Below are positions 16,899 through 43,599 of a stretch of 64,000 nt of DNA, in pieces; position 1 is the stretch's first letter, and each line of letters opens with the position of its first letter. The notes below the pieces were generated by a model that was not told where the DNA came from, did not search any database, and was given only the letters and a program-made list of their open reading frames with translations. The position numbers and the translations under genes are program-made. This stretch comes from Saururus chinensis (Eukaryota; Streptophyta; Magnoliopsida; Piperales; Saururaceae): NCBI GenBank assembly GCA_035235625.1, contig CP141150.1, positions 30,024,756 through 30,088,755 on the forward strand, in the 5' to 3' direction.

Positions 16899-16905
16899 AT
16901 TTATA
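16899..16905 (-). promoter_or_regulatory. TATA box of 8-cysteine gene copy A
   Basis: TATAAAT on the minus strand inside GCTATAAATCC, 93 bp upstream of the ATG at 16806. The same box sits at the same distance in the other intact copies and is kept in the orphan promoters. Confidence 0.8.
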
Positions 16906-16929
16906 GCTGCACCAAAGAGAAGCTGGCTT

Positions 16930-17470
16930 AGAAAAAGTAAAATTTTAATTAATGTTACATTAAATTATATCGGTGTGTTTCTCCCAAAATTGAATTCAGT
17001 ACTCAAAAGTGAAAATTGATATCTGATATATAAATAGTTGAATCGTGGCTTATTAATTCTCCAATCCCACCACCAACCACAAGACACGAATTGAGGAATG
17101 GTGCAAGTTTGAGTTTGATGCTATTCCACATATAGGAACTTTTTGTGCAAGTGCGTGAGTGGTTAGAAAAACCTGAGTTTATATCCTTCCAATGCGCAAG
17201 AGATACCATTGAAAATTGAAATTATTGTAAGATCACAAAGATTTAAACACTATAACTATACAAGTACATACTTCCAAGATCATAATGAACATAAGTTATA
17301 TGCAATATAATTATAAGCATTAGATCAGCCCAAATATGCTTATAGTAAACAACTTTGAGTCCAAATTTCATTAGTTTAATATTAGGCCATAGGTTGTCGA
17401 GGATGATTGTGATCAACAGACTTTATATGTGGAGAGTGCCCTTCCCATTCAATATTAGTTTGGCAGCTAC
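16930..17470 (-). repeat. Upstream module of the 8-cysteine gene (copy A)
   Basis: Conserved 5' flank shared with 9180-9775 and 25770-26190. It holds the same short words and no open frame of note. In unit 2 the homology stops at ~26194, where an LTR fragment is joined. Confidence 0.8.
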
Positions 17471-17990: not shown

Positions 17991-18127
17991 TTGTATAGTA
18001 TTTGGTGATGTGGGCTCTGACTTTCATAGGCATCGATTCGATAATCGACTATGCGTGGGGGCATGCATACTGGATGTCCAATGATTTATATGTGATGTCC
18101 AACAGTATGAGGGCTCCCATTGAGGTC

Positions 18128-19453
18128 GTATCATATCGGAGTATTTCAAATCACAGTAGAGCATTCCAGAGTAATTCAAATCGCAGTAGAATAAATCAAA
18201 GTAGATTAAATAGGAACATATCAGCATATATCAGATTAGCAAATTATATATCTTAATTAGTATATTACTAATTATGATATGCATTCATATAAATCATATT
18301 AAACTAGAAGGTCAGAAAAACGTACTCCCCTACAATTCCGGAAGTGGCGACATTCAAAGTTACTCATTTCCTCAGGGCGTCCTCACTTTCTAATTCGGAG
18401 ACAGCGGGCAGAACCTCTTCTAACTCCGGAATACTTTTCTCTTTCAATGCCCGTAGGCTACGGGTGGAACTTCCCCTTGACTCGGGATCACTTCACCCTT
18501 CATGTAGGCGTCAGACAGAATCTCCCCATACCCGGAGACACTTTACCCTTTATACGCCTGTAGGCAGTGGACAGAACCTCCCCTTACCCAGAGACACTTT
18601 ACCCTTCAGGCGCCCGTAGGCGGCGGATAGAACCTCCCCTTAATCGGAGACACTTTACCCTTTCCGCACCAGTAGACGACGGACAGATCCTCCCCTTACC
18701 TGAAGACATTTTACCCTTTCTGCACCCGTAGGCGGCGGACAAAACCTCCCCTTGCCCCGGGACGTTTCCCCTATATAGGGTAGCTAACTTGAGGTATAGA
18801 TACTTCAATTGTGTAGAACACTATCGAATTAGCAAAGAACACTTTTTTAAACTGAAGAAAACGGACTCAAAATGACTCCAGAAACTCCACCGGAAGAATG
18901 AATAGAGTTCGGAATTTATAAGAGAAGTCCTGCGAATACACGGCATGTGCGCGCATGTGCGCGCGACACGTGTCGTGCTCCTACTAGCTGAAATGGCAGC
19001 ACTGTGCATGTGACACGCGCGCAGTGAACGCATCATCCCGCATAGCACGGCAGCTATTTTGTCTGTTTCTTAATTTTTTAAAAATATTTTATTATTATTT
19101 TAATCAAATACAATTCAAACTTTAAAACGCGATACTTCTTATCCTGAAGTCGGAATTGCAAGTTCTTGGTACTGATGGACTCGTATCGACAAGCCCTTCG
19201 AAACTAGACCTCACATGGGTAGGTTATCTCACTTTTTTAAAGTAGTTCTTGCCACATTGCACGTTTCCCGAGGTTGTAACTTTCGCTTCCTACCCTCCAT
19301 TTCATGCATTTCTTGGTTCGTTACTCTCGTTACCTTGAGCTCTAACAAAATACGGGAATTTTATCCCTTAAAACTATTTAAAAATTTGACTAAAATTATA
19401 TAATTACACCTAACTCTTTTGGGTTAAGCGTAATTGAAACATGGGGTGCCACA
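18128..19453 (+). mobile_element. Truncated LTR (family of the solo LTR at 55499), unit 1
   Basis: Matches the right two-thirds of the solo LTR at 55499-57505, from the TATCATATCGGAGTATTTCAA region to the end GGGTGCCACA. It includes the ~57-bp GC-rich minisatellite (~18400-18760) and a promoter-like CTATATAGGG at 18771. The left end is missing. No internal retrotransposon genes are attached. Fossil, older than the unit duplication. Confidence 0.85.
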
Positions 19454-20735
19454 ATTGTGATTTTCAACTCTATAAAATAAAACTTCAATGGAAGGATGTA
19501 CTTATGTCACAACTTGGTATTAAATAAGGTGAGTGTGTAAATTAATTTTAAATAGAAGTTTCAGGAATTTATTTTTTTTAAATTAATGTTTATTTAAAAA
19601 AATACTTTTGGAGAGATTTGAGGAGGGGGTAACAGAGATGATCATCTACATAAATTATGTAACACACCTTATTCACTTCTCGCCCCCCATGGTGTTGAAA
19701 TCCTAGTTTTGCCCCTGCATGTACTGTATACTTGTGAAAAAATGTTATTGATTATTTACCTAATAAGAATTACATTCATGCTACCTTGAAGAAGGGGAAC
19801 ATATAAGCCACAAAACAAATCCTGAATGGGAAGGCCACTCTCCACACGTGAAGTTTGTTGGCAACATAATACTTTAAAACATATGGCTTAATATTAAACC
19901 GGTGAGATTTCGACTCACATTGTTTACTATAATCATATTTGGGTTAGTCTGGTACTTATAATTATATGACATGTAACTAATGTTCATTATGATCTTGAAA
20001 GCATATATTTTAACCATAGCATGCAAGGGAAACCTCCATTTGAAACGTACTTAATATTTATTTACACACGCAATGCACTTTCATTCTTGCTAATTAAAAA
20101 CAAACAAAAAATGTCAAACAACAAATTGGGAATTTGTATTGTTATAGTGTTTAATCTATGAGAGTTTAGAATAATTTCAATTTTTAATACTATCTCATGC
20201 ACATTAGAGGGATATAAACTCTTGTTTTTCTTACCATTCACATGCTTGAACAAAAATTTTCAAAGTGGAGAGTGGCCCGAAACTCAAACTTTCACCATTC
20301 CACAATTCTTGTCTTGTCACTGTTGTGGGGATTGGAGAATTAATGAGACATGATTCGGCTATTTCAATATCAAAAATTACTCTTAATTTTTCATAATGTA
20401 CTTGTAAAAGTACTAAAATCAAAAAGTTGATCTAGAATTGCATTAAAAAAAGTTGATCTTGAAAGAAAAACAAACAAATCTCTTTACATTAATACCAATC
20501 TGAAAATTGTAAACAAAGACCAGATATACCAACATGTAATGGTCAATACCAAAGTTCAATTCAATTTTAATGGAAAAAGGGACATATACCAAATTTGGGA
20601 GATACGCATTGACACAATCTAAAGTAACATTAATTAATATGTTACTTTTACTAAGCCAACTTCTTTTTGATGCAACTATAAATCCATCCCTAATGTAACC
20701 ACTAAACAATCAGCCCTATACTCATAGCATTGTAG
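19454..20735 (+). pseudogene. Inverted orphan promoter of an 8-cysteine gene, coding region lost (unit 1)
   Basis: From ~19800 to 20735 the plus strand carries a diverged copy of the upstream module (GGGATTGGAGAATTAATGAGAC, GTTACTTTTACTAAGCCAACTTC). It ends with the 8-cysteine promoter itself: ACTATAAATCCATCCCTAATGTAACCACTAAACAATC, followed by TACTCATAGCA. No ATG, signal peptide or cysteine motif follows. It is the 5' flank of a vanished gene copy pointing opposite to the intact gene. Sequence at 19454-19800 is unidentified. Confidence 0.8.
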
Positions 20736-20739
20736 TAAC

Positions 20740-21640
20740 TAGTCAATGTGTGGTTAATAAAGAGCATTGACTTTTATTTGGCATATAAGTGGATGCGTAC
20801 TATCGCCATTTTTCTATTTAAACCTATAAATGATAAATGGCAAAATTGTTGATATGCACTTGAGGTGATGTGATCTCTATTTAAGCTTAATATAAATGAG
20901 ACAATAAAGCGTAATGACAATTTTACACCACAAATACTACAATAGAATGACAACACGTTTTATTTGTATTTTATAATTCTATGTTTTGTAGTTTTTGGCA
21001 AATATAAGATCAAATATCATATATTTTATTATTAAGATGGACATAGAAAAGGACAAAAATATTCACTCACACCAACTACTTAGGAAAAGTGTATAAAAAC
21101 TAATAATAAAGTAGTTTAAAATTTTATGAGCAACTAAACTCTTGGTCCCTATTATAGAACATCATTGCTTTAGTTGATTCTCACAACTAAAAAGATTAGG
21201 AAACAAAGGATGCGAACGGTAATGTGCAACCCACCACCCAAAAGCCCAACTCTCGAAGGCCCAACACTACCCCCTAGTAAATACCCGCTTATTATGTTTC
21301 ATTCACCTCTTTCCCTTGGGATTTCTCTACTTTAAGGAAACCTACTTTACATAGAAGTTACTTGTGATGACTTTGGAAGGCACTTGGATGGCCATACTTA
21401 TTAGAGCCCTAAAAATGAAAAAGGATATAACTATATGTATTATTATTTTAAAAAGTTAATATAAGCATAATGTGGTAAAATTTTTGGCACCCTTTTGACT
21501 TTGATAATGACTAGTAGAAGTGTACGTGCATAATGCATGTGTTGCACTCCATAGATTTGGAGTCTTACATTATCATATGCAAATTGAGCTTCAACTTTAA
21601 TTATCATACCCAATCTATAGACAAGAGTTCATAAATAATA
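20740..21640. other. Unit 1 spacer without recognised features
   Basis: AT-rich single-copy-like spacer, repeated in unit 2 at ~28890-29800. It contains a CCACCACCCAAAAGCCC patch but no coding signal. Confidence 0.5.
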
Positions 21641-21644
21641 GTTT

Positions 21645-22960
21645 TGGTGTATCGGGGGTAATTTAGGACTTATATGACAAAAATCTCAGCCCCCTTTATC
21701 ACTTTGATAATAATATATATTAGGGGTAATTTAGGATTTTTATGACAAAAATCTTTGCCCCCCTTCTTGCTTTAATAAGTTATAAACTAATTAGGATTAA
21801 GGGTATTTTAGGATTACTATGACAAGAATCTCTACCCCCTTCTCAGTTTAATAATTTTTAAACCAATTAGGATTATTAAAATCAAGGTTATACGTATTGG
21901 AGAAATTACTTTCATATTTTATGTCTCTTGAATTCTAAATTAATTAAATATTTTATTGAAACGGCAATATTGGTATAGAGTGGCAAAACTCTCTTTGGAA
22001 TTTCTATGACAAAAACATCTTCTATTTTTCTCACTGTAATAAGTTCCAAATTAAATAGGACTATGAATCCAAGGTTATATGTATTGGAGAATTTTTTTAA
22101 TATTTTAAGTCTCATCAATTCTAAATTAATTAAAAGTTTCTTTAAAAGGACAATTAAAATAGGTATAGAGTGACAAAATTCTCTTTAGGAATTTTACGAA
22201 AAAAATCTATGGCCCTTTCTCACTTTAATAAGTTCTAAACTCATTAGGACTATGAAATCCAAGGTCATACTAATTGGAGAAATTATTGTTATATTTTAGG
22301 TCTCTTTAAGACTAAATTAATTAATAGTTTGTTTTAAAGGGCAATATAGATATAGAGTGGAAAAAATTTCTGCCCCACTTTTCACTTTAATAAGTTCTAA
22401 ACCAATTATGACCACGAAATCTAAGGTTACACATTTTTGAGAAATCATTCTAATAGTTTAGGTTTTTTGAATTATAAATTAATTAAGAGTTTGTTTGAAA
22501 GGAACGTATAGACATATAGTGGCAAAAATTTGGCACCTTTGTGACTTTAATTAGTTCTAAACCAATTAGAACTATGAAATTCAAGGTTATAAATATTAGA
22601 GAAATCATTGTAATATTTTAGGTTTTTTGAATACTAAATTGATTAAAAGTTCTTTTCAAAGGGCAATATAAGTATAGAGTAAGTATAAAGTGGCAAAAAT
22701 CTCCACCTCATTTCTCACTTTAATATTAATATTTATGTGCATATGTATTTGAGAAATTTTTATAATATTTTAAATTTCATGAATTTTAAATTGATTAAAA
22801 GCTCCTTTCGAAGGGCGATATAGTATAGAGTGACAAAAATCTCCCCTCACCCTTTCTTACTTTTTCTAAATTGATTAAAAGTTCCTTTCAAAGGGCAATA
22901 TATATAGATATAGAATGACAAAATTTCTACCCTTTTTTTACTTTATTAATAGTATAAATA
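21645..22960. repeat. Satellite-like block 2, ~175-bp monomers (unit 1)
   Basis: About seven monomers of ~160-190 bp built around CTTTAATAAGTTCTAAACCAATTAGGA, ATTTTAGGTTTTTTGAATT, AAGTTCTTTTCAAAGGGCAATAT and TAGAGTGGCAAAAAT. Monomer starts (word CTTTAATAAGTTCTAAA) fall near 21842, 22032, 22213, 22385, 22543 and 22717. Orientation is opposite to block 1. Confidence 0.85.
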
Positions 22961-23880
22961 TAAATATAAATTTAAACTCGAACCGCATAAATACAAAATA
23001 CTTTCAAACTGGTGCTGCCAAGGCCATGGCCGCCGGGTGGACCCAAGTCCAGTGGAGGGCGACGACAGCACACCTCGTTGGAGGCTAGCAGAATGGGAAC
23101 CAAGGGGTTCCCTGGAAGAAAAACCCGATCGCAACTCCGCGGAGCTGCGATTCGGTTATAACAAGTTTTCATTATTATGATTATTATTATTATTTCTTCT
23201 CTCATCCCCTTTTTCCATCATATCTCCAATTCATGCATGGAAACTATTCTCCCACTCACCTGAGTCCCATCGAACACGCCAAAGCCCTCATTCTCCACAT
23301 AAAGCCCTCTTTAAAGTGCCTAAGCCCTCTATTATACTTCGAACCCCTTTTTACTTGTCAAACATTATTTTATGCGTTAAACCCTTTTTTTCTCCTTTTC
23401 TCTTCCATTTACATTGTTTTTCTCCTTTTACATGTTGTAAGCTTCTACGACGAGTTGATGCCTCCGATGTGCAACTAAGCTCCACATCAGGCTCTAGAGG
23501 TACAAATATCCGTGTAAAATATGAAAAATAAATTCACTAAAGTGTCGAAATTGCCAGTTGGAAATTGAGTGAGAAAATAGCATACAAGGTTGCAGAAAAT
23601 TGTAGAAAAGTCAAGGATGTTACATTTTCTTGCAAATGAAACAATCATTGTTTTGTTTATTGTATTACTTCTTCCATATGCATTGTTTGTTCGAGAGCCT
23701 ATTCTAGTTCCTTGGTTTCTCTTTCCTCTACCATGAAATGAATTATTTTAAAAAAAATTCCTCCATTTTCCTTTTTCTCTTTGAAATTAAATTTGGATTG
23801 AAAAGCTTAATCCATGGAGGAAAGAGTAAACTTTTTAATACCTGATTTGTGAGTTTCCATAGAAGTCATCAACTCATGCA
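22961..23880. other. Unit 1 spacer with GC-rich patch and short ATT repeat
   Basis: A GC-rich patch at ~23010-23150 (GCCAAGGCCATGGCC, CTCCGCGGAGCTGCG) stands out from AT-rich DNA and is followed by a short (ATT)n run. Open frames at 23233-23530 are unlike any family I know and differ in length between units, so I do not call a gene. Confidence 0.45.
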
Positions 23881-24460: not shown

Positions 24461-25323
24461 GAATAGATGGAAAAGAGGGTGAAAGAAATGTTAAATATAT
24501 GATTTTGGATATAATAAATCAAAGATTTCACTATTGAGAAGATGAAGAAGAAAGGGGCAGCGAAGCACTGTTTTCCCCTTTTTTAGCCGAGGTTAATGTA
24601 GCACTTTTTTTATACTGTAGCTGCTTAAAACCTTCTTACAAAATGAGCTATATGAAAAGAATGTTATACTACGTAAAGGCCCATATCCACATTTTAACAG
24701 CTTAAATATGCCTTCTCAAATCGAAATGGTCCATTTACGTAGAAAACGAGAATCTCCCTTTTTATTTGTTGGACGACAACCGTTAGCACAAACTACAAAC
24801 CATCAAAACCTGAAGGGACTTTCAAAGGCAACAATAACAACCAATGACAGCCGAAGAAGCAATATTTCATGAGTTGTCTATCTATACACTTAATACTGCT
24901 TAACATAACCCAAAATCTGTAGTTAAAATTTAAAAACCGACGCTAGAGCTATGTTTAGTGACATTTGTTGAAGAGGCATGCCCATATTTCACTTGGCACT
25001 TGCGTTTGTCTGACCAGACTAGTTGTCGTCTGGGTTGTACTTAAATGAAGTAAATGTCAGTAACGAAATCTCACGCTCAACTTAGATCCCCTCAAGACAG
25101 GTGCTAAAACAGAAACTTCCACATTTATTATGTACTATTCCAGTACAGAAAGAGTAAATCTTTATTACAAAGTGCAAATGACATGCGATACATGCCAAGG
25201 CATCATATAGATAACGACACTGATAACAAAGAGGGAAGGATGCCCAGCCACTTATTTATATTTATTCCCACTTTGATTAAATTATTAATTTGATCATCAA
25301 GTATCTTGATGACCGCAGTTAAC

Positions 25324-25656
25324 TTAGCACACAAAACCAACTGGGAAGGTTCTGCCACATGCGCCTAGCACCACCCCGATGGCCACGTCAAGATTGACAG
25401 TAACTATGCCCAAACCACCGGCCTTGAGAGCATCGCAAAGGCAAACAGCAGCCTCAAGGTCAACCAAACCGTCCAGTAGAGAGCAGCAAGTCTGATCAGT
25501 TGATAAGGTTCCTCCAAGCAGACCCGCACATACTTTCAATTGTACAACATCCATCGGGCAAACTTCAGAAGATGGTACTGGAACTTGAGCTGTTACCAAG
25601 TAGAAGAGGATGAGGTTGAGGGTGAGAAAAACTGCAAAAGAACCTTTTGACGCCAT
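25324..25656 (-). CDS. Secreted 8-cysteine hydrophobic-seed-protein-like protein, copy B
   Basis: Intact 110-aa single-exon copy with the same signal peptide and all eight cysteines (33, 43, 57, 58, 72, 74, 100, 110). It differs from copy A at six places, all C-terminal to the CC pair: E62D, A75D, D80G, V81G, P92A and S103T. This is the most divergent of the three intact copies. The changes fall in the loop between C74 and C100, which lines the hydrophobic cavity in this fold, so ligand preference could differ (inference). TATA box, 5' UTR and poly(A) region are conserved. It lies in the middle unit of the array, followed downstream by the junction with unit 1. Confidence 0.95.
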   Translation of the reverse strand: MASKGSFAVFLTLNLILFYLVTAQVPVPSSEVCPMDVVQLKVCAGLLGGTLSTDQTCCSLLDGLVDLEAAVCLCDALKAGGLGIVTVNLDVAIGVVLGACGRTFPVGFVC

Positions 25657-25748
25657 TCCAAAATATGGATGTTTCAGATGCAGTTTAAGTTCAAATTACT
25701 CGTGCTACGAGTATAGGAATGATTGTTTTGTGGTTACAATGGGGAAGG

Positions 25749-25755
25749 ATTTATA
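25749..25755 (-). promoter_or_regulatory. TATA box of 8-cysteine gene copy B
   Basis: TATAAAT on the minus strand, 93 bp upstream of the ATG at 25656; the 5' leader is nearly identical to copy A. Confidence 0.8.
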
Positions 25756-26267
25756 GCTGCACCAAAGAGAAGCTGGCTTAGAAAAAGTAAAATTTTAATT
25801 AATGTTACATTAAATTATATCGGTGTGTTTTTCCCAAAATTGAATTCAGTACTATGTCAACTTTTTTAATCCAGTACTTTTTGAAGAATTCTCAAAAGTG
25901 AAAATTGATATCTGATATAGAAATAGTTGAATCGTGGCTTATTAATTCTCCAATCCCACCACCAGCCACAAGACACGAATTGAGGAATGGTGCAAGTTTG
26001 AGTTTGATGCTGTTCCACATATAGGAACTTTTTGTGCAAGTGCGTGAGTGGTTAGAAAAACCTGAGTTTATATCCTTCCAATACGCAAGAGATACCATTG
26101 AAAATTGAAATTATTGTAAGATCACAAAGATTTAAACACTATAACTATACAAGTACATACTTCCAAGATCATAATGAACATAAGTTATATGCTACCTAAA
26201 TGATTTATATGTGATGTCCAATGATTTATATGTGATGTCCAACAGTATGAGGGCTCCCATTGAGGTC

Positions 26268-27605
26268 ATATCAGATCGGAGTATTTCAAATCACAATAGA
26301 GCATTTCAGAGTAATTTAAATCACGATAGAATAAATTAAAGTAGATTAAATAGGAACATATCAGCATATATCATATTAGCAAATTATATATCTTAATTAG
26401 TATATTACTAATTATGATATGCATTCATATAAATCATATTAAACTAGAAGGTCAGAAAAGCGTACTCCCCTACAATTTTGGAAGTGGCGACATTCAAAGT
26501 TACTCGTTTTCTCAGGGCGTCCTCACTTTCTAATCTGGAGACAGCAGGCAGAACCTCTTCTAACTCCAGAATACTTTTCTCTTTCCATGCCCGTAGGGTA
26601 CGGGTGGAACTTCCCCTTGACTCGGGATCACTTCACCCTTCATGTAGGCGGCAGACAGAACCTCCCCTTACCCGGAGACACTTTACCCTTCATACGCCCG
26701 TAGGCAGCGGACATAACCTCCCCTTACCCAGAGACATTTTACCCTTCAGGCGCCCGTAGGCTGCAAACAGAACCTCCCCTTAATCGGATACACTTTACCC
26801 TTTCCGCACTAGTAGACGACGGACAGATCCTCCCCTTACCCGAAGACACTTTACCCTTTTTGCACCCGTAGGCGGCGGACAGAACCTCCCCTTGCCCCAG
26901 GACGTTTCCCCTATATAGGGTTGCTAACTTGAGGAATGAATACTTCCATTGTGTAGAACACCATCGAATTAGCTAAGAATGCTTTTTTAAACTGAAGAAA
27001 ACGGACTCTAAATGACTCGAGAAACTCCTCCAGAAGAATGAACAGAGTTTGGAATTTATAAGAGAAGTCCCGCGAACAGATGGCATGTGCGCGCGACACG
27101 TGTCGTGCTCCTACTAGCCGAAATGGTAGCACTGTGCATGTGACGCGCACGCAGTGAACGCATCATCCCGCATAGCACGGCTCGGCTTCAGCAATTACGC
27201 CAGCTATTTTGTCTGTTTCATAATTTTTTTAATAATATTTTATTATTATTTTAATCAAATACAATTCAAACTTTAAAACACGATACTTCTTATCCCGAAG
27301 TCGGAATTGTAAGTTCTTAGTACCGATGGACTCGTATCGACAAGCCCTTCGAAACTAGACCTCACATGGGTAGGTTATCTCACTTTTTCAAAGTGGTTCT
27401 TGCCACATTGCACACTTCCCGATGTTGTAATTTTCGCTTCCTACCCTCCATTTCGTGCATTTTTTGGTTCGTTACGCTCGTTACATTGAGCTCTAACAAA
27501 ATACGGGAATTTCATCCGTCAAAAACCCTTTAAAAATTTGACTAAAATTATATAATTACCCCTAACTCTTTTGGGTTAAGCGTAATTGAAACATGGGGTG
27601 CCACA
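26268..27605 (+). mobile_element. Truncated LTR (family of the solo LTR at 55499), unit 2
   Basis: Counterpart of 18128-19453 with the same left truncation, ~57-bp minisatellite (~26530-26900), TATA-like CTATATAGGG at 26911 and terminal GGGTGCCACA. Upstream, a short ATGATTTATATGTGATGTCCA word is present twice in tandem (26208-26245) where unit 1 has it once. Confidence 0.85.
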
Positions 27606-28890
27606 ATTGTGATTTTCAACTCTATAAAATAAAACTTCAATGGAAGGATGTACTTATGTCACAACTTGGTATTAAATAAGGTGAGTGTGTAAATTAATTT
27701 TAAATAGAAGTTTCAGGAATTTATTTTTTTTAAATTAATGTTTATTTAAAAAAATACTTTTGGAGAGATTTGAGGAGGGGGTAACAGAGATGATCATCTA
27801 CATAAATTATGTAACACACCTTATTCACTTCTCGCCCCCCATGGTGTTGAAATCCTAGTTTTGCCCCTGCATGTACTGTATACTTGTGAAAAAATGTTAT
27901 TGATTATTTACCTAATAAGAATTACATTCATGCTACCTTGAAGAAGGGGAACATATAAGCCACAAAACAAATCCTGAATGGGAAGGCCACTCTCCACACG
28001 TGAAGTTTGTTGGCAACATAATACTTTAAAATATATGGCTTAATATTAAACCGGTGAGATTTCGACTCACATTGTTTACTATAAGCATATTTGGGTTAGT
28101 CTGGTACTTATAATTATATGACATGTAACTAATGTTCATTATGATCTTGAAAGCATATATTTTAACCATAGCATGCACGGGAAACCTCCGTTTGAAACGT
28201 ACTTAATCCTTATTTACACACGCAATGCACTTTCATTCTTGCTAATTAAAAACAAACAAAAAATGTCAAACAACAAATTGGGAATTTGTATTGTTATAGT
28301 GTTTAATCTATGAGAGTTTACAATAATTTCAATTTGTAATACTATCTCATGCACATTAGAGGGATATAAACTCTTGTTTTTCTTACCATTCACATGCTTG
28401 AACAAAAATTTTCAAAGTGGAGAGTGGCCTGAAACTCAAACTTTCACCATTCCACAATTCTTGTCTTGTCATTGATGTGGGGATTGGAGAATTAATGAGA
28501 CATGATTCGGCTATTTCAATATCAAAAATTACTCTTAACTTTTCATAATGTACTTTTAAAAGTACTAAAATAAAAAAGTTGATCTAGAATTGAATTAAAA
28601 AAAGTTGATCTTGAAAGAAAAACTAACAAATCTCTTTACATTAATACCAATGTGAAAATTGTAAACAAAGACCAGATATACCAACATGTAATGGTCAATA
28701 CCAAAGTTCAATTCAATTTTAATGGAAAAAGGGACATATACCAAATTTGGGAGATACACATTGACACAATCTAAAGTAACATTAATTAATATGTTACTTT
28801 TACTAAGCCAACTTCTTTCTGATGCAACTATAAATCCTTCCCTAATGTAACCACTAAACAATCAGCCCTATACTCATAGCATTGGAGTAA
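27606..28890 (+). pseudogene. Inverted orphan promoter of an 8-cysteine gene (unit 2)
   Basis: Counterpart of 19454-20735: diverged upstream module ending with TATAAATCCTTCCCTAATGTAACC and TACTCATAGCATTGGAG, with no coding sequence behind it. Together the two copies show that the loss of the coding part preceded the unit duplication. Confidence 0.8.
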
Positions 28891-29800
28891 CTAGTCAATG
28901 TGTGGTTAATAAAGAGCATTGACTTTTTATTTGGCATATAAGTGGATGCGTACTATCGCCATTTTTCTATTTAAACCTATAAATGATAAATGGCAAAATT
29001 GTTGATATGCACTTGAGGTGATGTGATCTCTATTTAAGCTTAATATAAATGAGACAATAAAGCGTAATGACAATTTTACACCACAAATACTACAAGAGAA
29101 TGACAACACGTTTTATTTGTATTTTATAATTCTATGTTTTGTAGTTTTTGGCAAATATAAGATCAAATATCATATATTTTATTATTAAGATGGACATAGA
29201 AAAGGACAAAAATATTCACTCACACCAACTACTTAGGAAAAGTGTATAAAAACTAATAATAAAGTAGTTTAAAATTTTATGAGCAACTAAACTCATGGTC
29301 CCTATTATAGAACATCATTGCTTTTGTTGATTCTCACAACTAAAAAGATTAGGAAACAAAGGATGCAAACGGTAATGTGCAACCCACCACCCAAAAGCCC
29401 AACTCTCGAAGGCCCAACACTACCCCCTAGTAAATACCCGCTTATTATGTTTCATTCACCTCTTTCCCTTGGGATTTCTCTACTTTAAGGAAACCTACTT
29501 TACATAGAAGTTACTTGTGACAACTTTGGAAGGCACTTGGATGGCCATACTTTTTAGAGCCTTAAAAATTAAAAAGGATATAACTATATGAATTATTATT
29601 TTAAAAACTTAATATAAGCATAATGTGGTAAAATTTTTGGCACCCTTTTGACTTTGATAATGACTAGTAGAAGTGTACGTGCATAATGCATGTGTTGCAC
29701 TCCATAGATTCGGAGTCTTACATTATCATATGCAAATTGAGCTTCAACTTTAATTATCATACCCAATCTATAGACAAGAGTTCATAAATAATAGTTTTGG
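28891..29800. other. Unit 2 spacer without recognised features
   Basis: Near-identical to 20740-21640. No gene or RNA signal seen. Confidence 0.5.
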
Positions 29801-29804
29801 TGTA

Positions 29805-31100
29805 TCGGGGGTAATTTAGGACTTATATGACAAAAATCTCAGCCCCCTTTATCACTTTGATAATACTATATATTAGGGGTAATTTAGGATTTTTATGACA
29901 AAAATCTTTGCCCCCCCTTCTTACTTTAATAAGTTATAAACTAATTAGGATTAATGCTATTTTAGGATTACTATGACAAGAATCTCTACCCCCTTCTCAC
30001 TTTAATAATTTTTAAACCAATTAGGATTATTAAAATCAAGGTTATACGTATTGGAGAAATTACTTTCATATTTTATGTCTCTTGAATTCTAAATTAATTA
30101 AATATTTTATTGAAACGGCAATATTGGTATAGAGTGGCAAAACTCTCTTTGGAATTTCTATGACAAAAACATCTTCTATTTTTCTCACTTTAGTAAGTTC
30201 CAAATTAAATAGGACTATGAATCCAAGGTTATATGTATTGGAGATATTTTTTTAATATTTTAAGTCTCATCAATTCTAAATTAATTAAAAGTTTCTTTAA
30301 AAGGACAATTAAAATAGGTATAGAGTGACAAAATTCTCTTCAGGAAGTTTACGAAAAAAATCTATAGCCCTTTCTCACTTTAATAAGTTCTAAACTCATT
30401 AGGACTATGAAATCCAAGGTCATACTAATTAGAGAAATTATTGTTATATTTTAGGTCTCTTTAAGACTGAATTAATTAATAGTTTGTTTTAAAGGGCAAT
30501 ATAGATATAGAGTGGAAAAAATTTCTGCCCCGCTTTTCACTTTAATAAGTTCTAAACCAATTATGACCACGAAATCTAGGGTTACACATTTTTGAGAAAT
30601 CATTCTAATAGTTTAGGTTTTTTGAATTATAAATTAATTAAGAGTTTGTTTGATAGGAACGTATAGACATATAGTGGCAAAATTTTTGGCACCTTTGTCA
30701 CTTTAATTAGTTCTAAACCAAGAACTATGAAATTCAAGGTTATAAATATTAGAGAAATCATTGTAATATTTTAGGTTTTTTGAATACTAAATTGATTAAA
30801 AGTTCTTTTCAAAGGGCAATATAAGTATAGAGTAAGTATAAAGTGGCAAAAATCTCCACCTCATTTCTCACTTTAATATTAATATTTATGTACATATGTA
30901 TTTGAGAAATTTTTATAATATTTTAAATTACATGAATTTTAAATTGGTTAAAAGCTCCTTTCGAAGGTCGATATAGTATAGAGTGACAAAAATCTCCCCT
31001 CACCCTTTCTTACTTTTTCTAAATTGATTAAAAGTTCCTTTCAAAGGGCAATATAGATATAGAATGACAAAATTTCTACCCTTTTTTTACTTCATTAATA
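29805..31100. repeat. Satellite-like block 3, ~175-bp monomers (unit 2)
   Basis: Same monomers, order and orientation as block 2, with scattered substitutions and small gaps (for example a few bases missing near 30720). Block 3 is therefore a copy of block 2 made with the whole unit, not an independent expansion. Confidence 0.85.
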
Positions 31101-31343
31101 GTATAAATATAAATATAAATTTAAACTCGAACCGCATAAATACAAAATACTTTCAAACTAGTGCTGCCAAGGCCTTAGCCGTCTGGTGGACCCAAGTCCA
31201 GTGGAGGGCGACGCCAGCACACCACGTTGGAGGCTAGCAGAATGGGAACCAAGGGGTTCCCTGGAAGAAAAACCCAATCGCAACTCCGCGGAGCCGTGAT
31301 TCAGTTATAACAAGTTTTCATTATTATGATTATTATTATTATG

Positions 31344-32690: not shown

Positions 32691-33557
32691 GTTGGAATAG
32701 ATGGACAAGAGGGTGAAAAAATATAAAAATATAAGATTTTGGATATAATAAATCAAAGATTTCACTATTGAGAAGATGAAGAAGAAAGGGGCAGCGAAGC
32801 ACTGTTTTCCCCTTTTTTAGCCGAGGTTAATGTAGCACTTTTTTATACTGTAGCTGCTTAAAACCTTCTTACAAAATGAGCTATATGAAAAGAATGTTAT
32901 ACTACGTAAAGGCCCATATCCACATTTTAACAGCTTAAATATGCCTTCTCAAATCGAAATGGTCCATTTACGTAGAAAACGAGAATCTCCCTTTTTATTT
33001 GTTGGACGACAACCGTTAGCACAAACTACAAACCATCAAAACCTGAAGGGACTTTCAAAGGCAACAATAACAACCAATGACAGCCGAAGAAGCAATATTT
33101 CATGAGTTGTCTATCTATACACTTAATACTGCTTAACATAACCCAAAATCTGTAGTTAAAATTTAAAAACCGACGCTAGAGCTATGTTTAGTGACATTTG
33201 TTGAAGAGGCATGCCCATATTTCACTTGGCACTTGCGTTTGTCTGACCAGACTAGTTGTCGTCTGGGTTGTACTTAAATGAAGTAAATGTCAGTAACGAA
33301 ATCTCACGCTCAACTTAGATCCCCTCAAGACAGGTGCTAAAACAGAAACTTCCACATTTATTATGTACTATTCCAGTACAGAAAGAGTAAATCTTTATTA
33401 CAAAGTGCAAAATGACATGCGATACATGCCAAGCCAACATATACATAACGACACTGATAACAAAGAGGGAAGGATGCCCAGCCACTTATTTATATTTATT
33501 CCCACTTTGATTAAATTATTAATTTGATCATCAAGTATCTTGATGACCGCAGTTAAC

Positions 33558-33890
33558 TTAGCACACAAAACCAACTGGGAAGGATCTGCCACATGCGCCT
33601 AGCACCACCCCGATGGGCACGTCAAGATTGACAGTAACTATGCCCAAAACATCGGCCTTGAGAGCAGCGCAAAGGCAAACAGCAGCCTCAAGGTCAACCA
33701 AACCGTCCAGTAGAGAGCAGCAAGTCTGATCAGTTGATAAGGTTCCTCCAAGCAGACCCGCACATACTTTCAATTGTACAACATCCATCGGGCAAACTTC
33801 AGAAGATGGTACTGGAACTTGAGCTGTTACCAAGTAGAAGAGGATGAGGTTGAGGGTGAGAAAAACTGCAAAAGAACCTTTTGACGCCAT
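33558..33890 (-). CDS. Secreted 8-cysteine hydrophobic-seed-protein-like protein, copy C
   Basis: Intact 110-aa copy, identical to copy A except D62 as in copy B. Signal peptide, eight-cysteine motif and NLDVPI are complete. The locus is a mosaic. Its coding region and 3' flank match units 1/2. Its 5' leader and promoter (GTTGCAGATGCAGTTTAAGTTTAAA, GATAGAAGTTGGCTTAGCAG) match the pseudogene at 37787-38116 instead. This is expected if unequal crossing-over or conversion took place within the gene. The promoter joins truncated kinase DNA at ~34045, so the longer upstream module of copies A and B is absent and expression may differ (inference). Confidence 0.95.
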   Translation of the reverse strand: MASKGSFAVFLTLNLILFYLVTAQVPVPSSEVCPMDVVQLKVCAGLLGGTLSTDQTCCSLLDGLVDLEAAVCLCAALKADVLGIVTVNLDVPIGVVLGACGRSFPVGFVC

Positions 33891-33982
33891 TCCAAAATAT
33901 AGATGTTGCAGATGCAGTTTAAGTTTAAATTACTCGTGCTACGAGTACAGGGATGATTGTTTTGTGGATACAATGGGGAAGG

Positions 33983-33989
33983 ATTTATA
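33983..33989 (-). promoter_or_regulatory. TATA box of 8-cysteine gene copy C
   Basis: TATAAAT on the minus strand, 93 bp upstream of the ATG at 33890. Only ~55 bp further upstream the sequence switches to kinase-derived DNA. Confidence 0.75.
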
Positions 33990-34764
33990 GCTGCACCAGA
34001 TAGAAGTTGGCTTAGCAGAAGTAAAATGTAAATTAATGTTACTTTAGACCAAATGATAAATATATACCAGGCTAATTATCCAAACGAAAATTTTCTTCAT
34101 AGTTACATTCAAAGATTTGGACTTTTAAAGATTTTTATGTTTTACCTTGAAATCACGTGAATGAACCTTGATTCCCATGGATTGTGCTACCGCATCCATG
34201 CTTGAGATTATTGTCTTTGCAGGTTTACGCGAAACGAAACGAGTTTGACGTTTTACACAATCCTGCTCAGGCAGTCAAATTGGCCAAAGTTGCTTTTACT
34301 TACCAGACAAAAATTAGAAATACAAGAACCAGATTGCTCAAAAATATAGACCCATATTAACTCCTACGTAACATATTTCAAACCAGTATAGCATAACAAA
34401 CAGAGATAGACAAGATATCAGTTGATATGGAGGGTATAAATTTTAAGGGAAAAAGTCTTTCCAGGTAAAAAAAAAAAAAGAATCCGGGTAAAAGAGCACC
34501 CAAATGCCATATTCATCAAATTTGGCCACTAAAATAAAAGAGAGTACGGAATATAAGGCCTCAAAATCTTCGTTTCAACAAAGACACATTTTAACAGTTA
34601 CCTAGTAATCTGAATCAGCGATTTCAAAGTGACATACATCTAAATCAGCAATTTTAGGCGTCATGTTATCATGAACTTTGTTTAAAACCATGAGGCAAAC
34701 GCAAAAAGACAAGATAGTTTACTTTTAAGAGTAGGATTTCTTTTGCACAAATGGTTTACAACAA

Positions 34765-35478
34765 GAACGTAGCTATTCAGACCCCATTATTTTCCCAGTG
34801 TCGTCTAAAGTAAAGCGAAAAAAGTAATTTTATTTTTACTTCATTCCCCCACTTACCCTCCCTTATTTTGCACATGCTTCCCCCACTTCACTAAAACTCC
34901 TATTTGTCTTCCAGCGACGGCAACATAAACTCCAACGACCATTTCGAATCTGACTTGCGCACCGGCAAACTGGCCGCACAGCCTGTGCAGATCCGGCCAC
35001 GGCAACACAAGCCGTAGCCAGTGCGGACAGATTCGGCCGTGCTGGCGGCGGCTTGCACTGGCCACACGCGGCACGGACAGATCTGGCCGAGTGCGGCGGC
35101 CTGCGCTGGCAGCGCACGGCAGGCAGGATTTGGTCGTGGCCTGGCAGCGGCCTGCGCTGCCAACACGCGGCGGGCTGGATCTGGCTGCGACTTGGCAGCA
35201 GCCTGCGCTGCCAATGCGCGGCACGGCCAGATCTGGCCATAGCTTGCGCTGGTCGAGCACAGCACGACTGGATTTGGCTGTGGGCGGCACAGTTTTGGCT
35301 CCTGTGGCGCCGGTGCTGGTGCCAGTGACCGGTTTCACCGGAGAAGAAGATGGGGAAGGGGAAGAGTGGTATTTTTTTTTAAGTATTGGGGATAAGTGAG
35401 AAATTTTAATAACAAGAGTTAGGGTAAAGGAGAAATTGGGGACAGAAGGAAAAAAGTGAGGTTTGAATAGCCACGTTT
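34765..35478. mobile_element. Non-autonomous Mutator-like element in D1 with a GC-rich cargo
   Basis: A 714-bp insertion with terminal inverted repeats (GAACGTAGCTATTCAGACC at the left, GGTTTGAATAGCCACGTTT at the right). The flanking 9-mers are TTACAACAA and TTACCCCTA. The corresponding empty site in D2 (~38999) is TTACAGCTA, two changes from each flank, which supports a 9-bp target duplication as in Mutator elements. The ends resemble those of the D2 element (GAACGCGGCTATT). The middle (~34900-35340) is strongly GC-rich, unlike anything nearby, as in Pack-MULEs that carry captured sequence. No transposase. Confidence 0.82.
35050..35265. repeat. 51-bp minisatellite inside the D1 Mutator-like element
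   Basis: CCTGCGCTG recurs at 35101, 35152 and 35203 with related words at ~35050 and ~35244, a 51-bp period of about four units. Since 51 is a multiple of three, several frames stay open, which explains the long frames here. They are low-complexity (Arg/Ala/Pro-rich) and I do not call a gene. Confidence 0.85.
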
Positions 35479-37786
35479 TTACCCCTAAGATTTAGTACCA
35501 TACGTAAATATACAATAATATACCTGTCGTCCATCAAACAACGCTGAAAGATTCAAAGCCCTGAGACAATGTAATCATCTCAGAGGCATTCATTATTATA
35601 TGGCCTCTTTCATCATTTCCCACTTGCTCAGACACATATTTATCCTGCAAAATCACAATATGCACAATAATCTCCTTCAAAAACCTGAGAGAGCATCTTG
35701 ATGTGCTCGTCCTAAAGAGTTATACTGGAATGGTAATACAAGGCATAGACATATGAAGTAAATGTTTGCATTCTCGAATTTCGATGTGGAATAGAAGAGA
35801 AGAGAGTAGCTACCTCTATGTCATCAAAAACTGCACTAACATCGTCCAAGCTAACTTCTTCTTTACTACATAGGTTTTTTTCTAAACCATGGATCGCTTT
35901 TGATTTGTTCAATTAGGATTTGCTGCGAAAGAACAAATAACAACTTACATTATCCGCACTTTTTTAATTGAACTTTGACGGAAAAACAGTATCACAGGTT
36001 TCTTTCAAGGAGAGTTCATTCATATACAAATAATTTCTACTTTTGTACACAAGATTATTAGTGAAACTCGAACAATTTATTTTACCACTCCACTCGGTGA
36101 TGACTATACCCCTTTCAAGTTCAGAAAAAATCTCCTTTGACTAATTCTAACTACATAATCATAATTAGATAGTATAAGATCATTGATATAGATCTTATGG
36201 CTCTATTTAAGCCTATTTTGTGCCAACTATTTCCTAAGAGAGAGCAGTCAAATCTTCATTTGTTAACTTCATCCAACTTTTCTTAGGTATCATTCTCCTT
36301 CTTTTAGAATCATTTACATGCATCCTTTTCAACCTAGTCTATTTGGTCTTCTTTATATATGCCCATACTAATGCAACTTATATTCTTTAAGTTTCTTCCT
36401 TAAAGGTGTTACTCTTAAGTTCTTATGAATATACTCATTTCTAACCTTATTACTCCTAATTACTAATATCCACCTTAGCATCCTTATTTCAACTATATTC
36501 ACTACATAATCTACAAAATTAACCAGATAACTCATAACCCCTGTTTATCTATACCTTCCAGACAATAAATGCTGCTAAGAAATTTTTTGAATGAATTGTC
36601 CACGGAGACAGTGTAAAGACATCTAACTCAAGGGCCAACAGAATTCATGCCACCTTGTTGGTCTGTGGGTGGGTGGGTGGGTAGGGTGGGCTGGAAGAAA
36701 AGAGAAATAACCGAGAGGGGAACATCATATTATCGGGGTCACAAAATTTTGCCCTGCTCTAAGCAGTAGGACAAACATTATGCCAAACTAAATATCAAGA
36801 AACCTGAGTCCTAACCAGGCCTAATCTCAGATGGGGCCCAAATTTTGTGGCGACCTTACTTTTAAGGTACTCTTTCTATCCTACAAGCTGATGATGGCGG
36901 TCCCTTTGAAAGCTAAAATTTGCATGATTTTCCCCTAAAGACGGTGTATAAGAGAAAACTGTTCAATGTTGATAATGATACTGCATATAAGAGGGTTTCA
37001 AAAATCTCAATACCCAAGTTCGCATATGAAAAATACCAATGCCCTGCAAATCAAATTCCATCAACAAAGAAACAATTTAAATTAAAAACCAAAATTATTT
37101 TAAGATATTACACTCGAAAATACAAGTATGCGCAACTATATTTACATTTATTATATTCCCTAGTTGTCTTGGAAAAATTTTATATAACATGTCAAAATAG
37201 TTAAAATTTGTGAGAAAAGATCGAGTATTTTTTTAATTAGTGGAGCTGCACCATGAGAGAACCAAGGAGGACATAAGAATTGAGCTGCATTGATCTGCAA
37301 GAATCCACAGTCTTAAGTTTAGTCAGTTCTAACAAACAATCAGTTCTAACTCAGAACAATAACACGGTGTATACAAATAGTCTCATGATTACTTTCAAAC
37401 ATCACTAGGACGCCTAGAATTATTCCATGTCAACTCACCTTTCTGTATAAAGTTCGAAGATCAACTTCATCAAAGGGAAGATACCCAGCTATCAAGACTA
37501 AAAGGATGATACCACAAGACCACACATCGGCAGCAGCACCATCATACCCCTTATTGCCGACCTATCCAGCTAGTCAGTAAGTTCAAAACTTGCAATCTCA
37601 ACGTTTCTCATATGCCAATAAAACTCTTTCTTTTAAGAGTCATGGTATGCGATACATGCCGAGCCAGCATATAGATAACGACACTGATAACAAAGAGGGA
37701 AGGATGCCCAGCCACTTATTTATATTTATTCCCACTTTGATTAAATTATTATTTGATCATCAAGTATCTTGATGACCGCAGTTAAC

Positions 37787-38116
37787 TTAGCACACAAAAC
37801 CAACTGGGAAGGTTCTGCCACATGCGTCTAGAACCACCCCGATGGGCACGGCAAGATTGACAGTAACTATGCCCAAAACACCGGCCTTGAGAGCATCGCA
37901 AAGGCAAACAGCAGCCTCAAGGTCAACCAAACCGTCCAGTAGAGAGCAGCAAGGTTGAGTTGATAAGGGTACTCCAAGCAGACCTGCACATACATTCAAT
38001 TATACAACATCCATCGGGCAAACTTCAGAAGATGGTACTGGAACTTGAGCTGTTACCAAGGAGACGAGGATGAGGTTGAGGGTGAGAAAAACTACAAAAG
38101 AACCTTTTGACGCCAT
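37787..38116 (-). pseudogene. 8-cysteine hydrophobic-seed-protein-like pseudogene 3 (unit D2)
   Basis: Minus-strand copy with the start at 38116 and a recognisable signal peptide, but the glutamine codon after MDVV is a stop (TAA). A small deletion also changes GGTLSTDQTCC to GVPLSTQPCC. The cysteine-rich downstream part ([35 protein letters not shown]) remains readable. The TATA box (38209-38215) and 5' leader are kept, so it could still be transcribed. It sits between the two kinase fragments at the D1/D2 border. Confidence 0.92.
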
Positions 38117-40766
38117 TCCAAAATATAGATGTTGCAGATGCAGTTTAAGTTTAAATTACTCGTGCTACGAGTATAGGGATGATTGTTTTGTGGTTACAAT
38201 GGGGAAGGATTTATAGCTGCACCAGATAGAAGTTGGCTTAGCAGAAGTAAAATGTAAATTAATGTTACTTTAGACCAAATGATAAATATATACCAGGCTA
38301 ATTATCCAAACGAAAATTTTCTTCATAGTTACATTCAAAGATTTGGACTTTTAAAGATTTTTATGTTTTACCTTGAAATCACGTGAATGAACCTTGATTC
38401 CATGGATTGTGCTACCGCATCCATGCTTGAGATTATTGTCTTTGCAGGTTTAAGCGAGACAAAACGAGTTTGACGTTTTACACAATCCTGCTCAGGCAGT
38501 CAAATTGGCCAAAGTTGCTTTTACTTACCAGACAAAAATTAGAAATACAAGAACCAGATTGCTCAAAAATATAGACCCATATTAACTCCTACGTAACCTA
38601 TTTCAAACCAGTATCGCATAACAAACAGAGATAGACAAGATATCAGTTGATATGGAGGGTATAAATTTTAAGGGAAAAAGTCTTTTCAGGTAAAAAAACA
38701 GAAAAATGAGGAAAAATAAAAGAATCCCGGTAAAAAAGAGCACCCAAATGCCATATTCATCAAATTTGACCACTAAAATAAAAGAGAGTACGGAATATAA
38801 GGCCTCAAAATCTTCGTTTCAACAAGACACATTTTAACAGTTACCTAGTAATCTGAATCAGCGATTTCAAAGTGAATTACATCTAAATCAGCAATTTCAG
38901 GCGTCATGTTATCATGAACTTTGTTTAAAACCATGAGGCAAACGCAAAAAGACAAGATAGTTTACTTTTAAGATTAGGATTTCTTTTGCACAAATGGTTT
39001 ACAGCTAAGATTTAAGTGCCATACGTGAATATACAATAATATACCTGTCGTCTATCAAACAACGCTGAAAGATTCAAGCCCTGAGACAATGTAATCATCT
39101 CAGAGGCATTCATTATTATAGGGCCTCTTTCATCATTTCCCACTTGCTCAGACACATATTTATCCTGAAAAATCACAAAATGCACAATAATCCCCTTCAA
39201 AAACCTGAGAGATCATCTTGATGTGCTCGTCCTAAAGAGTTATACTGGAATGGTAATACAAGGCATAGACATATGAAGTAAATGTTTGCATTCTCGAATT
39301 TCGATGTGGAATAGAAGAGAAGAGAGTAGCTACCTCTATGTCATCAAAAACTGCACTAACATCGTCCAAGCTAACTTCTTCTTTACTACATAGGTTTTTT
39401 TCTGAACCATGGATCGCTTTTGATTTGTTCAATTAGGATTTGCTGCGAAAGAACAAATAACAACTTACATTATCCACACTTTTTTAATTGAACTTTGACG
39501 GAAAAACAGTATCACAGGTTTCTTTCAAGGAGAGTTCATTCATATACAAATAATTTCTACTTTTGTACACAAGATTATTAGTGAAACTCGAACAATTTAT
39601 TTTACCACTCCACTCGGTGATGACTATACCCCTTTCAAGTTCAGAAAAAATCTCCTTTGACTAATTCTAACTACATAATCATAATTAGATAGTATAAGAT
39701 CATTGATATAGATCTTATGGCTCTATTTAAGTCTGTTTTGTGCCAACTCTTTCGTAAGAGAGAGCACAGTCATATCTTTGTTTGTTAACTTCATCCAACT
39801 TTTCTTAGGTATCATTCTCCTTCTTTTAGAATCATTTACATATATCCTTTTCAACCTAGTCTATCTATTGGTCTTCTTTATATATGCCCATGCCAATGCA
39901 ACTTATATTTTTTAAATTTCTTCCTTAAAGGTGTTACTCTTAAGTTCTTATGAATGTACTCATTTCTTACCTTATTACTCCTAATTGATAATATCCACCT
40001 TAGCATCCTTATTTCAACTATATTCACTACATAATCTACAAAATTAACCAGATAACCTATAACCTCTGTTTATCTATACCTTCCTAAAACAGTTACAGAT
40101 AATAAATGCTGCTAAGAAATTTTTTGAAGGAATTGTCCACGTGGAGATAGTGTAAAGACATCGAACTTAAGGGCCAACAGAATTCATGCCACTTTGTTGG
40201 TGGGTGGGTGGGTAGCGTGGGGTGGAAGGAAAGGGAAATAACGGAGAGGGGAACATCATATTATCGGGGTCACAAAATTTTGCCCTGCTCTAAGCAGTAG
40301 GACAAACATCATGCCAAACTGAATATCAAGAAACCTGAGTCCTAACCAGGCCTAATCTCAGATGGGGCCCAAATTTTGTGGCGACCTTACTTTTAAGGTA
40401 CTCTTTCTATCCTACAAGCTGATGATGGCGGTCCCTTTGAAAGCTAAAATTTGCATGATTTTCCCCTAAAGACGGTGTATAAGAGAAAACTGTTCAATGT
40501 TGATAATGATACTGCATATAAGAGGGTTTCAAAAATCTCAATACCCAAGTTCGCATATGAAAAATACCAATGCCCTGCAAATCTAATTCCATCAACAAAG
40601 AAACAATTTAAATTAAAAACCAAAATTATTTAAGATATTACACTCGAAAATACAAGTATGCGCAACTATATTTACATTTATTATATTCCCTAGTTGTCTT
40701 GGAAAAATTTTATATAACATGTCAAAATAGTTAAAATTTGTGAGAAAAGATCAAGTATTTTTTTAA

Positions 40767-42052
40767 GAACGCGGCTATTTCCCCCCCCCCACCCCACGCC
40801 CAATATTCACTCAGGGCCCCCCAAATAAGAAATATATGGGTAATTTTTTTATTACTCAGCACCCCCCACACTATTCTTAAGGCACCCCAGTTAAGAAAAT
40901 AAAAACCCCCACGTTCATGAACTTCTCACCGGCGGCAAGAAAGTTTGTGAGCGCCCGAATTGTACAAGGTAATGTCCCTCCCAACCTATAATGGTCGTCC
41001 CTCCCAATTGCTTCTTAATGCACGAAAATAATGTTGATTACAGGAGTTCATCCCATCTTCCTCCCTGCCTGTAATGGTGTTCATCTCAATTACTGTAATG
41101 GCGTCCCTCTGTATGCACTTAAAAATCTTTGCTTCCCATCAAACTTAAAAAATTCATTTCTTTGGGTGATTAGCAAGTCAATCTTTATTGATTTTCTGGG
41201 CATTCAACGAATAGAATTTGGGTTGACAATGCGCCATGGCTAACTGAACTTTAACGTGCATGAAGTTTTCAAAGCGTCATTCTACCAGAACTCGTGACAG
41301 GGGCTACCACCCGCCATTACAAACTGATTTATACGGGGACTAAATATCCCCATCAATTTCTTCCAAATATGTCGATGACCTCTCCCTGCCAGAACTCGTC
41401 CAGAATGTTTAATGGATGCGAAAATCTTCTGGAAGTTGTCTGGTGGGGGGTACCCCCTGCCACATTCAATGCATTCATACAGGGATGTATGTCCCTGTAA
41501 AATTATTCTCAATTTGTCGGTGACCTCTCCCAGCAAGAACTCGTCCAAAAGCTTTTAAAACCCTCGAAAATCTTCTGGAAGTTGTCTCGCGGGGGGTACC
41601 CCCCGCCAAATTCAATGCATGTATACGGGGACGTATGTCCCCGTAAGATTATTCTCAATTTGACGGTGACCTCTCCCCGCAAAAACTCGTCCAGAAGGTG
41701 AGGCGAATAGACAGGACGGGCCTAGAGGGGAGGAGACAATACAGGAGGGGAGAGGAGGGGAGGGGAGGAGAGGAGACAAGACAAGACAGGAAGGCAGGGG
41801 AGGGGAGGGGACTTCACCGGAGGAGAGGGGACTTCACCAGAGGAGAGGGGACGGAGGGGAGGGGATTTCACCGGAGGAGAGTGGACGGAAATGGAGAAGA
41901 TGAAGGTGGGGGGCACAGTCCAAATGGGGGGGGGGGGTTTACTCAGTCTTAGGTTGAGGGTGGGGTGTAGGGAAGTAAAAACAGTAATTTATGTGGGGTG
42001 TGCAAAGTGTGGGGGGCCCTGAGTGAATGTTGGGGGGGGAATAGCCGCGTTC
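40767..42052. mobile_element. Non-autonomous Mutator-like element in D2, 1286 bp
   Basis: The ends are inverted repeats beginning GAACGCGGCTATT and continuing through a C-run and ATTCACTCAGGGCCCCCC (~60 bp). The insertion is flanked by a perfect 9-bp duplication TTTTTTTAA (40758-40766 and 42053-42061). D1 has a single TTTTTTTAA at the matching point (~37231), the empty site. Inside are ~165-bp tandem repeats (~41285-41695) and a GGGGAGG-rich stretch (~41735-41890). No transposase frame is present. The perfect target duplication indicates a young insertion. Confidence 0.93.
41285..41697. repeat. ~165-bp tandem repeat inside the D2 Mutator-like element
   Basis: GGTGACCTCTCCC(C/A)GC followed by AACTCGTCC and, further on, TCTTCTGGAAGTTGTCT and GGGGGGTACCCCC recurs about two and a half times. 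The GGGGGGTACCCCC word is itself a perfect palindrome in each unit. Confidence 0.8.
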
Positions 42053-43599
42053 TTTTTTTAATTAGTGGAGGTGCACCATGAGAGAACCAAGGAGGACATA
42101 AGAATTGAGCTGCATTGATCTGCAAGAATCCACAGTCTTAAGTTTAGTCAGTTCTAACAAACAATCAGTTCTAACTCAGAACAATAACACGGTGTATACA
42201 AATAGTCTCATGATTACTTTCAAACATCACTAGGACGCCTAGAATTATTCCATGTCAACTCACCTTTTTGTATAAAGTTGGAAGATCAACTTCATCAAAG
42301 GGAAGATACCCAGCTATCAAGACTAAAATGATGATAGCACAAGACCACACATCGGCAGCAGCACCATCATACCCCTTATTGCTGACCTATCCAGCTAGTC
42401 AGTAAGTTCAAAACTTGCAATCTCAACGTTTCTTATATGCCAATAAAACTCTTTCTTTTAAGAGTCATGGTAAGGAAGGAGAATCCAGCAATAATAAAAC
42501 ATTATTTGACAGCTTAACAATCTAATGCCATCAAATTACCTTCAACAACGAATCTATGGATTTTGCCTAAGCAAGAACAAATATCTTTAAATAAAAAAAA
42601 GGTCTCTTATAAAAAATTCAGTCCCTTAGCCGATAGTGATGTGACCAGGATCAATTCACATAACCAGACTAAAAGACTGATCTGAGAACAGTTATGGAGC
42701 TTTTTGTTCAAATTTTGAGAGGAAAGAAAGGATTGCAAAGTTCCAATCTTTAGCTACTGGAGATTGTGCCTCATCACAGTGTGAAGGATGACTTTCGCAG
42801 CTAAAATGTGGGTTCATTAAGTCTGACCAATATATAGCTTCAATGGTGCTCCATGCTTCCCCTCCACCGACAAATATTTCCCTCCTAAAAATTGAGAAAT
42901 TTTCTCCAAACCTTACTTTCTATCGTACACTTTCTCAACGCATTGGAATATGAACTGACATGGCTACACCACGAACACAATACAACTACAAATTATTAAC
43001 TAAATGAGGTCACTCAGTCATAATAGCATCAAAATATTCATGTTTCAACCATATCTATGGCTTTTCCTCATTTTTATGGTCCAGATAAGGAAATGTGATT
43101 GCTAGCATTCTTGTTAATAGCATAATTTTTTTGCCTCTGCTACTTGTAGTTCACGATAGTTCACGATGTTATGGCATAGAATTTTCATTTTCTTTTCACA
43201 GTTCCTGGCAGCTCTGCCTGCACTGTCTCAACATCATCTTTTCCTTCCCTTGATTTGTCCTTTTTATCTTCTGGAGGGGAAATTTTCGTTTGTAATCATC
43301 ATGATCATAATGTCCATATAGTGCGTACCTCAGGCGCCACATAATTTGGAGTTCCGCATGTGGTATGAATAAATATTTAGGTGAACATAGGTTTCTGAAG
43401 CACTAAATAGAACTTATATGGAAATCTAAGGTTACTTTCTGAGGTAAAGCACTAAGGCCAAAATCTGAAACTTTCAATCTTCCTTGGGAATCAAGAAGGT
43501 TCTCGGGCTACAGAACAGCATCAATAAGTTGCTGAAAGTACCTTCGAGATTCATTCTCTCGCAGCCTTCCTTGATGGACCTAAGGGTCCAAAAACATAA

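Follow-up and report, generated by a model that had tools for sequence, protein, structure and literature searches.

Results

Tandem copies D1 and D2 and the elements they carry

The window, the whole stretch of 64,000 nucleotides that we analysed (C11:30024756-30088755), lies in the 516-Mb genome of Saururus chinensis, which comprises 11 contigs. It contains two adjacent tandem copies, D1 and D2, both with coding stretches that we named HyPRP/LTP-like and kinase-like by reading their translations; those of D1 lie on the minus strand. Self-comparison of the window and alignment of the copies with each other and with a relative on contig C7 gave the following features:

33417..37646, no strand assigned: tandem copy D1, from self-comparison of the window and alignment to D2
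34756..34764, plus strand: left target-site copy of the D1 element, TTACAACAA, from alignment with D2 and the C7 copy
34765..35478, plus strand: D1 element, 714 bp, non-autonomous MULE of the GAACGTR type
35479..35487, plus strand: right target-site copy of the D1 element, TTACCCCTA, from alignment with D2 and the C7 copy
37228..37236, plus strand: empty site of the D2 element within D1, a single TTTTTTTAA, from alignment with D2 and the C7 copy
37647..42472, no strand assigned: tandem copy D2, from self-comparison of the window and alignment to D1
38999..39007, plus strand: empty site of the D1 element within D2, TTACAGCTA, its letters identical in the C7 copy
40758..40766, plus strand: left target-site duplication of the D2 element, TTTTTTTAA, identical to the right copy (9/9)
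40767..42052, plus strand: D2 element, 1286 bp, non-autonomous MULE of the GAACGCGG type
42053..42061, plus strand: right target-site duplication of the D2 element, TTTTTTTAA, identical to the left copy (9/9)

A larger tandem array (window 8700-42472) takes in the left part of D1/D2, with related blocks from about 8.7 kb onward: 15829-17303 is 96.4% alike to 24679-26192, 15829-16962 is 98.5% alike to 32912-34046, and 18073-23193 recurs at 26213-31342 with 96.3% likeness. The HyPRP/LTP-like stretch falls in the repeated part of this array, and its frame in D2 (window 37790-38130, minus strand) has an in-frame stop where the D1 counterpart is open. A one-base length difference between the copies shifts the frame of a kinase-like exon in D1 (window 35520-35660, minus strand), and the D1 element stops about 45 bp short of an apparent splice site of the kinase-like exon. 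Both copies also contain a dispersed repeat of about 320 bp (window 39700-40030), which had 37 relatives at 73-77% among the best 40 of 671 candidates.

The D1 element has inverted ends of about 30 bp, a G+C content of 55%, internal G+C-rich repeats of 48-51 bp, and overlapping frames of up to 161 aa in its interior. The inverted ends of the D2 element extend over about 43-57 bp with gaps and include a poly-C tract of unequal length; internal tandem repeats are present in this element as well. The original prediction gave both elements GAACGYRGCTATT-type ends, which is as we found them except that the right end of the D1 element is spelled AAACGTGGCTATT.

Polarity of the two events

Alignment confirmed that D1 and D2 serve as each other's empty site for two elements, as predicted, each element being missing from the other copy. 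The D2 target is indeed single in D1, and the duplication around the D2 element is exact over 9 bp. The target copies of the D1 element agree at only 6 of 9 positions. As 137 of 756 mismatched controls score this high or higher, it is the empty sites that carry the argument for D1.

A search with window 38400-40700 found, among the best 40 of 671 candidates, one full-length relative besides D1 and D2 (C7:16228724-16231139, 83%), and C7:16229100-16231700 was aligned with both tandem copies. Over gap-free columns this C7 copy is 89.9% identical to D1 and 89.8% identical to D2, and it carries neither element. At the first site it matches the TTACAGCTA of D2 letter for letter, with no footprint; at the second, C7 has TTCTTTTTA in place of TTTTTTTAA, and conservation in C7 is poor to the left of this site. 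Since the C7 copy lacks both elements, as the sister copy lacks each in turn, the alignments confirm that both events read as insertions rather than deletions, made after D1 and D2 had separated, which is the order originally proposed; the first site is the cleaner case. Had either element predated the duplication and then been excised or deleted from the sister copy, the D1 target copies might be expected to look as they do, more changed than the D1/D2 split predicts, as if the insertion were older. That history, however, needs precise removal of the element plus one target copy, and by the evidence of the C7 copy, with its footprint-free first site, it appears largely refuted; we regard it as very improbable. 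We instead favor, at a probability of about 95%, two independent insertions of short non-autonomous MULEs, one per tandem copy, after the copies separated.

Divergence of the copies and age of the insertions

With the elements and one target copy each removed, D1 and D2 differ by 88 mismatches and 15 gaps over 3491 aligned bases (K2P = 0.0257). Substitution rates used for dating range from 6.5e-9 to 1.3e-8 per site per year, at which the copies would have split roughly 1-2 million years ago, provided that gene conversion has not reset their divergence. The nearest near-full-length copy of the D2 element besides itself is 91% identical (best 40 of 341 candidates), and the best such copies of the D1 element are 75% and 76% identical, with shorter genomic pieces reaching 85% (best 40 of 247 candidates). 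Given these values and the date of the split, the suggestion that the family moved recently here is not upheld, and nothing shows a recent burst. Nor can the perfect duplication in D2 mark it as the younger insertion, as had been proposed, because perfect flanks are the commonest class among the sampled pairs (16 of 28, see below) and 18 bases would be expected to gather only about 0.2 changes.

The D1 target copies carry 4 changes in 18 bases, against about 0.2 expected at the D1-private rate; relative to TTACAGCTA, two lie in the left copy and two in the right. The Poisson chance of at least four changes is about 5e-5, a post hoc figure that involves fewer events if AG to CC was a single one. 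Three more D1-private changes fall within 45 bases to the right of the insertion and none in about 260 aligned bases to the left. This cluster, together with the uneven spread of D1/D2 mismatches (0 to 12 per 200 alignment columns), would fit real insertions into copies that were later partly homogenised by gene conversion, in which case the duplication, and with it at least the D1 insertion, would be older than the 2.5% divergence suggests. Private changes are nevertheless balanced overall (25 in D1 and 26 in D2 over 2380 columns), and error-prone insertion or chance would equally yield a local cluster, such that we consider homogenisation rather unlikely; it is compatible with two insertions and does not exclude them. 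Wicker et al. (PMC5023962) describe strong mutation clusters at excision sites but no more than a slight rise where elements insert. The D1 excess may stem from gene conversion elsewhere, from error-prone insertion or from chance.

Mobility of the ends across the genome

The exact 13-base end GAACGYRGCTATT occurs 561 times in 516 Mb, against 15 occurrences of the reversed control pattern, so the ends are not chance. From 52 loci (L001-L048 and L079-L082) we collected nearest pairs whose two ends each had at most one mismatch. The loci were a non-random sample that came first in chromosome order, had top search scores or, for L079-L082, were picked for facing exact ends. This yielded 28 non-redundant pairs, the window's two included; two pairs (at L033) have one end in common. 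Their flanking 9-mers agreed at 9/9 in 16 pairs, 8/9 in 6, 7/9 in 1, 6/9 in 2, 4/9 in 2 and 2/9 in 1. Agreement of 8/9 or better was thus seen in 22 of 28 pairs, whereas mismatched-pair controls reached 8/9 in 6 of 756 and 9/9 in none of 756; once the window's own two are removed, flanks are perfect in 15 of 26. Of 19 target sites with 9/9 flanks (19 of 20 such sites, one TA-repeat site being omitted), 15 begin with T and 15 end with A. The genome therefore holds further copies with these termini and 9-bp duplications, as the original prediction anticipated.

One sampled locus, L080 (C2:55838300-55841450), contains at 139-2997 a 2859-bp element with GAACGTGG ends, a 9/9 duplication and an interior that is possibly captured sequence; only its ends match the D1 element. 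Throughout L079-L082, matches to the D1 element are confined to terminal stretches of 40-106 bp, one D1 end being 80% identical to L082 over 56 bp.

The internal tandem repeats of both elements could be taken to mean that they are mere tandem-repeat or G+C-rich expansions and not transposons. This reading is refuted by the common inverted ends, the 9-bp duplications, the hundreds of dispersed ends and the linked transposases described below, and we assign it a negligible probability.

Two lineages of ends and their linked transposases

Beyond their ends, the D1 and D2 elements have no similarity above that of shuffled sequences (best local score 28; best of 100 shuffles 32). At L082 (C3:30761851) we found a 2042-bp element with GAACGTGG ends, a 9/9 duplication and a 214-aa frame. 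Pfam detected no MULE or transposase domain in this frame, only two sub-threshold unrelated matches. The frame has at least 151 genomic matches (best 150 of 247 candidates scored). Among these relatives is L083, 81% identical over the match, whose 618-aa frame contains the MULE domain PF10551 (85.1 bits, cut-off 27.6); the MULE domain evidence thus comes from this family member.

Linkage between ends and transposases was assessed with 94 of the 151 matches, the higher-ranked ones, three second fragments of a locus being left out. Ends of the GAACGCGG type, taken as 121 exact GAACGCGGCTATT followed by C or T, faced inward within 6 kb of the 94 matches in 6 cases (0.13 expected) and outward in 3. 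For GAACGTGGCTATTTR ends (first 100 of 175) there were 8 inward cases (0.11 expected) and no outward ones, 2 of the 8 being both ends of L082's own element, the query. None of the 67 sites of GAACGTGGCTATTCAAA, the subtype found at the right end of the D1 element, lay within 6 kb of a transposase match. Transposases beside GAACGTGG ends are 62-100% identical to the query and those beside GAACGCGG ends 52-59% in five of six cases and 73% in the sixth. These five form one lineage, 83-100% identical to L084 (second search, best 150 of 230 candidates), and the L084 transposase is 59% identical to that of L083. As an exception, one GAACGCGG end lies 5.6 kb from, and points towards, a match belonging to the other lineage (C7:31572310).

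The assignment of both elements to one family is consequently not supported, as their interiors are dissimilar and each end type is found mostly beside a transposase lineage of its own. We place them in two sister lineages that have about 13 terminal bases in common, with ends GAACGTGG/GAACGTAG in one and GAACGCGG in the other. The D2 element matches the 5' part of L084 (C1:3567000-3571000), which bears a transposase and has the same end type, over 305 bp at 80%; a further 72 bp match at 79%, and there are weaker matching stretches in the opposite orientation. This common internal sequence points to the D2 element as a probable non-autonomous derivative of the linked transposase-bearing lineage. 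The D1 element has no match in L083 or L084, and the transposase pieces that we tested by tblastn matched neither element at E<=0.01. The inverted terminal repeats, the target duplication (here 9 bp; 8-11 bp in the superfamily) and the linked MULE-domain transposases identify the insertions as Mutator-like, as proposed.

Of the expected autonomous element with a MULE transposase, linked transposases were found, but for the D2 type we read no complete transposase-bearing element that combined both ends with a target duplication. L084 displays only its 5' end, L083 shows no convincing end in 4.8 kb, and the L082 element has both ends but encodes only a 214-aa piece. A genome search for PF10551 listed many MULEs, and ends with at most one mismatch occurred in 0 of 30 of these loci within 1.5-kb flanks. 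The lowest match in that search scored 89.9 bits (best 150 of 2831 candidates), which is probably why L083, at 85.1 bits, was not among them. Against solved structures, the L083 transposase gave one non-significant match.

Neither element encodes a transposase, and their ends could be used by a MULE transposase encoded elsewhere, which would mobilise them in trans and cut a staggered target to leave the 9-bp duplication. Each transposase may prefer its own end type.

An OTU-like region downstream of the transposase

The one member read from each lineage (L083 and L084) has, downstream of the transposase, a region that is 64% identical between the two over 123 residues and includes DGHCGFH. In L083 (3304-4572) the motif region occurs twice in tandem in a single reading frame. 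DGHCGFH was found in 0 of 30 other PF10551 loci, with flanks of only 1.5 kb on each side. The region's best matches among solved structures were three VCPIP1 deubiquitinase sequences (E = 0.45-0.5, not significant), and Pfam gave one sub-threshold cysteine-proteinase match on L083. From the motif and these weak matches, we take the region to be OTU-like. We tentatively propose, at somewhat below even odds, a clade of plant MULEs with an OTU-type deubiquitinase-like domain after the transposase, split into two lineages that recognise different one-letter "dialects" (GAACGTGG, GAACGCGG) of a common 13-bp end, each driving its own non-autonomous set.

Discussion

The elements are non-autonomous MULEs, a known kind, and with the insertions, their polarity, the 9-bp duplications, the copy number and the end-transposase linkage all observed, they make an unusually well documented case of ordinary transposon biology. 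Some MULEs carry ULP1-like protease domains (KI, CUMULE); the lineages described here resemble these in adding a cysteine-protease-like region to a MULE and differ in that the motif (DGHCGFH) is, by reading, OTU-like. They resemble plant TIR MULEs in the 9-bp target duplication, the inverted ends, the PF10551 domain in a member of the linked transposase family and a SWIM-like C-x-H...C-x-H stretch, also named by reading. Unlike in those elements, the ends are short (about 30 and 43-57 bp), although still inside the 14-500 bp range that PMC6446971 gives for MULE terminal inverted repeats. Table 1 of that source lists "Ovarian Tumour Gene" for the MuDR-6_HM group of Cnidaria, which is alike in tying an OTU-type motif to a MULE and different in its animal host. 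Our literature search for OTU-bearing MULEs found this cnidarian group in the sources available, and such proteins may well have been annotated in plants.

At this locus, a tandem sister and a diverged paralogue display the pre-insertion sites, giving insertion polarity without a second species and making changes in the target copies directly countable. With the linked transposases one can examine how two related enzymes partition ends that are nearly the same; they also serve as a test case for the OTU-like region in this genome's MULEs.
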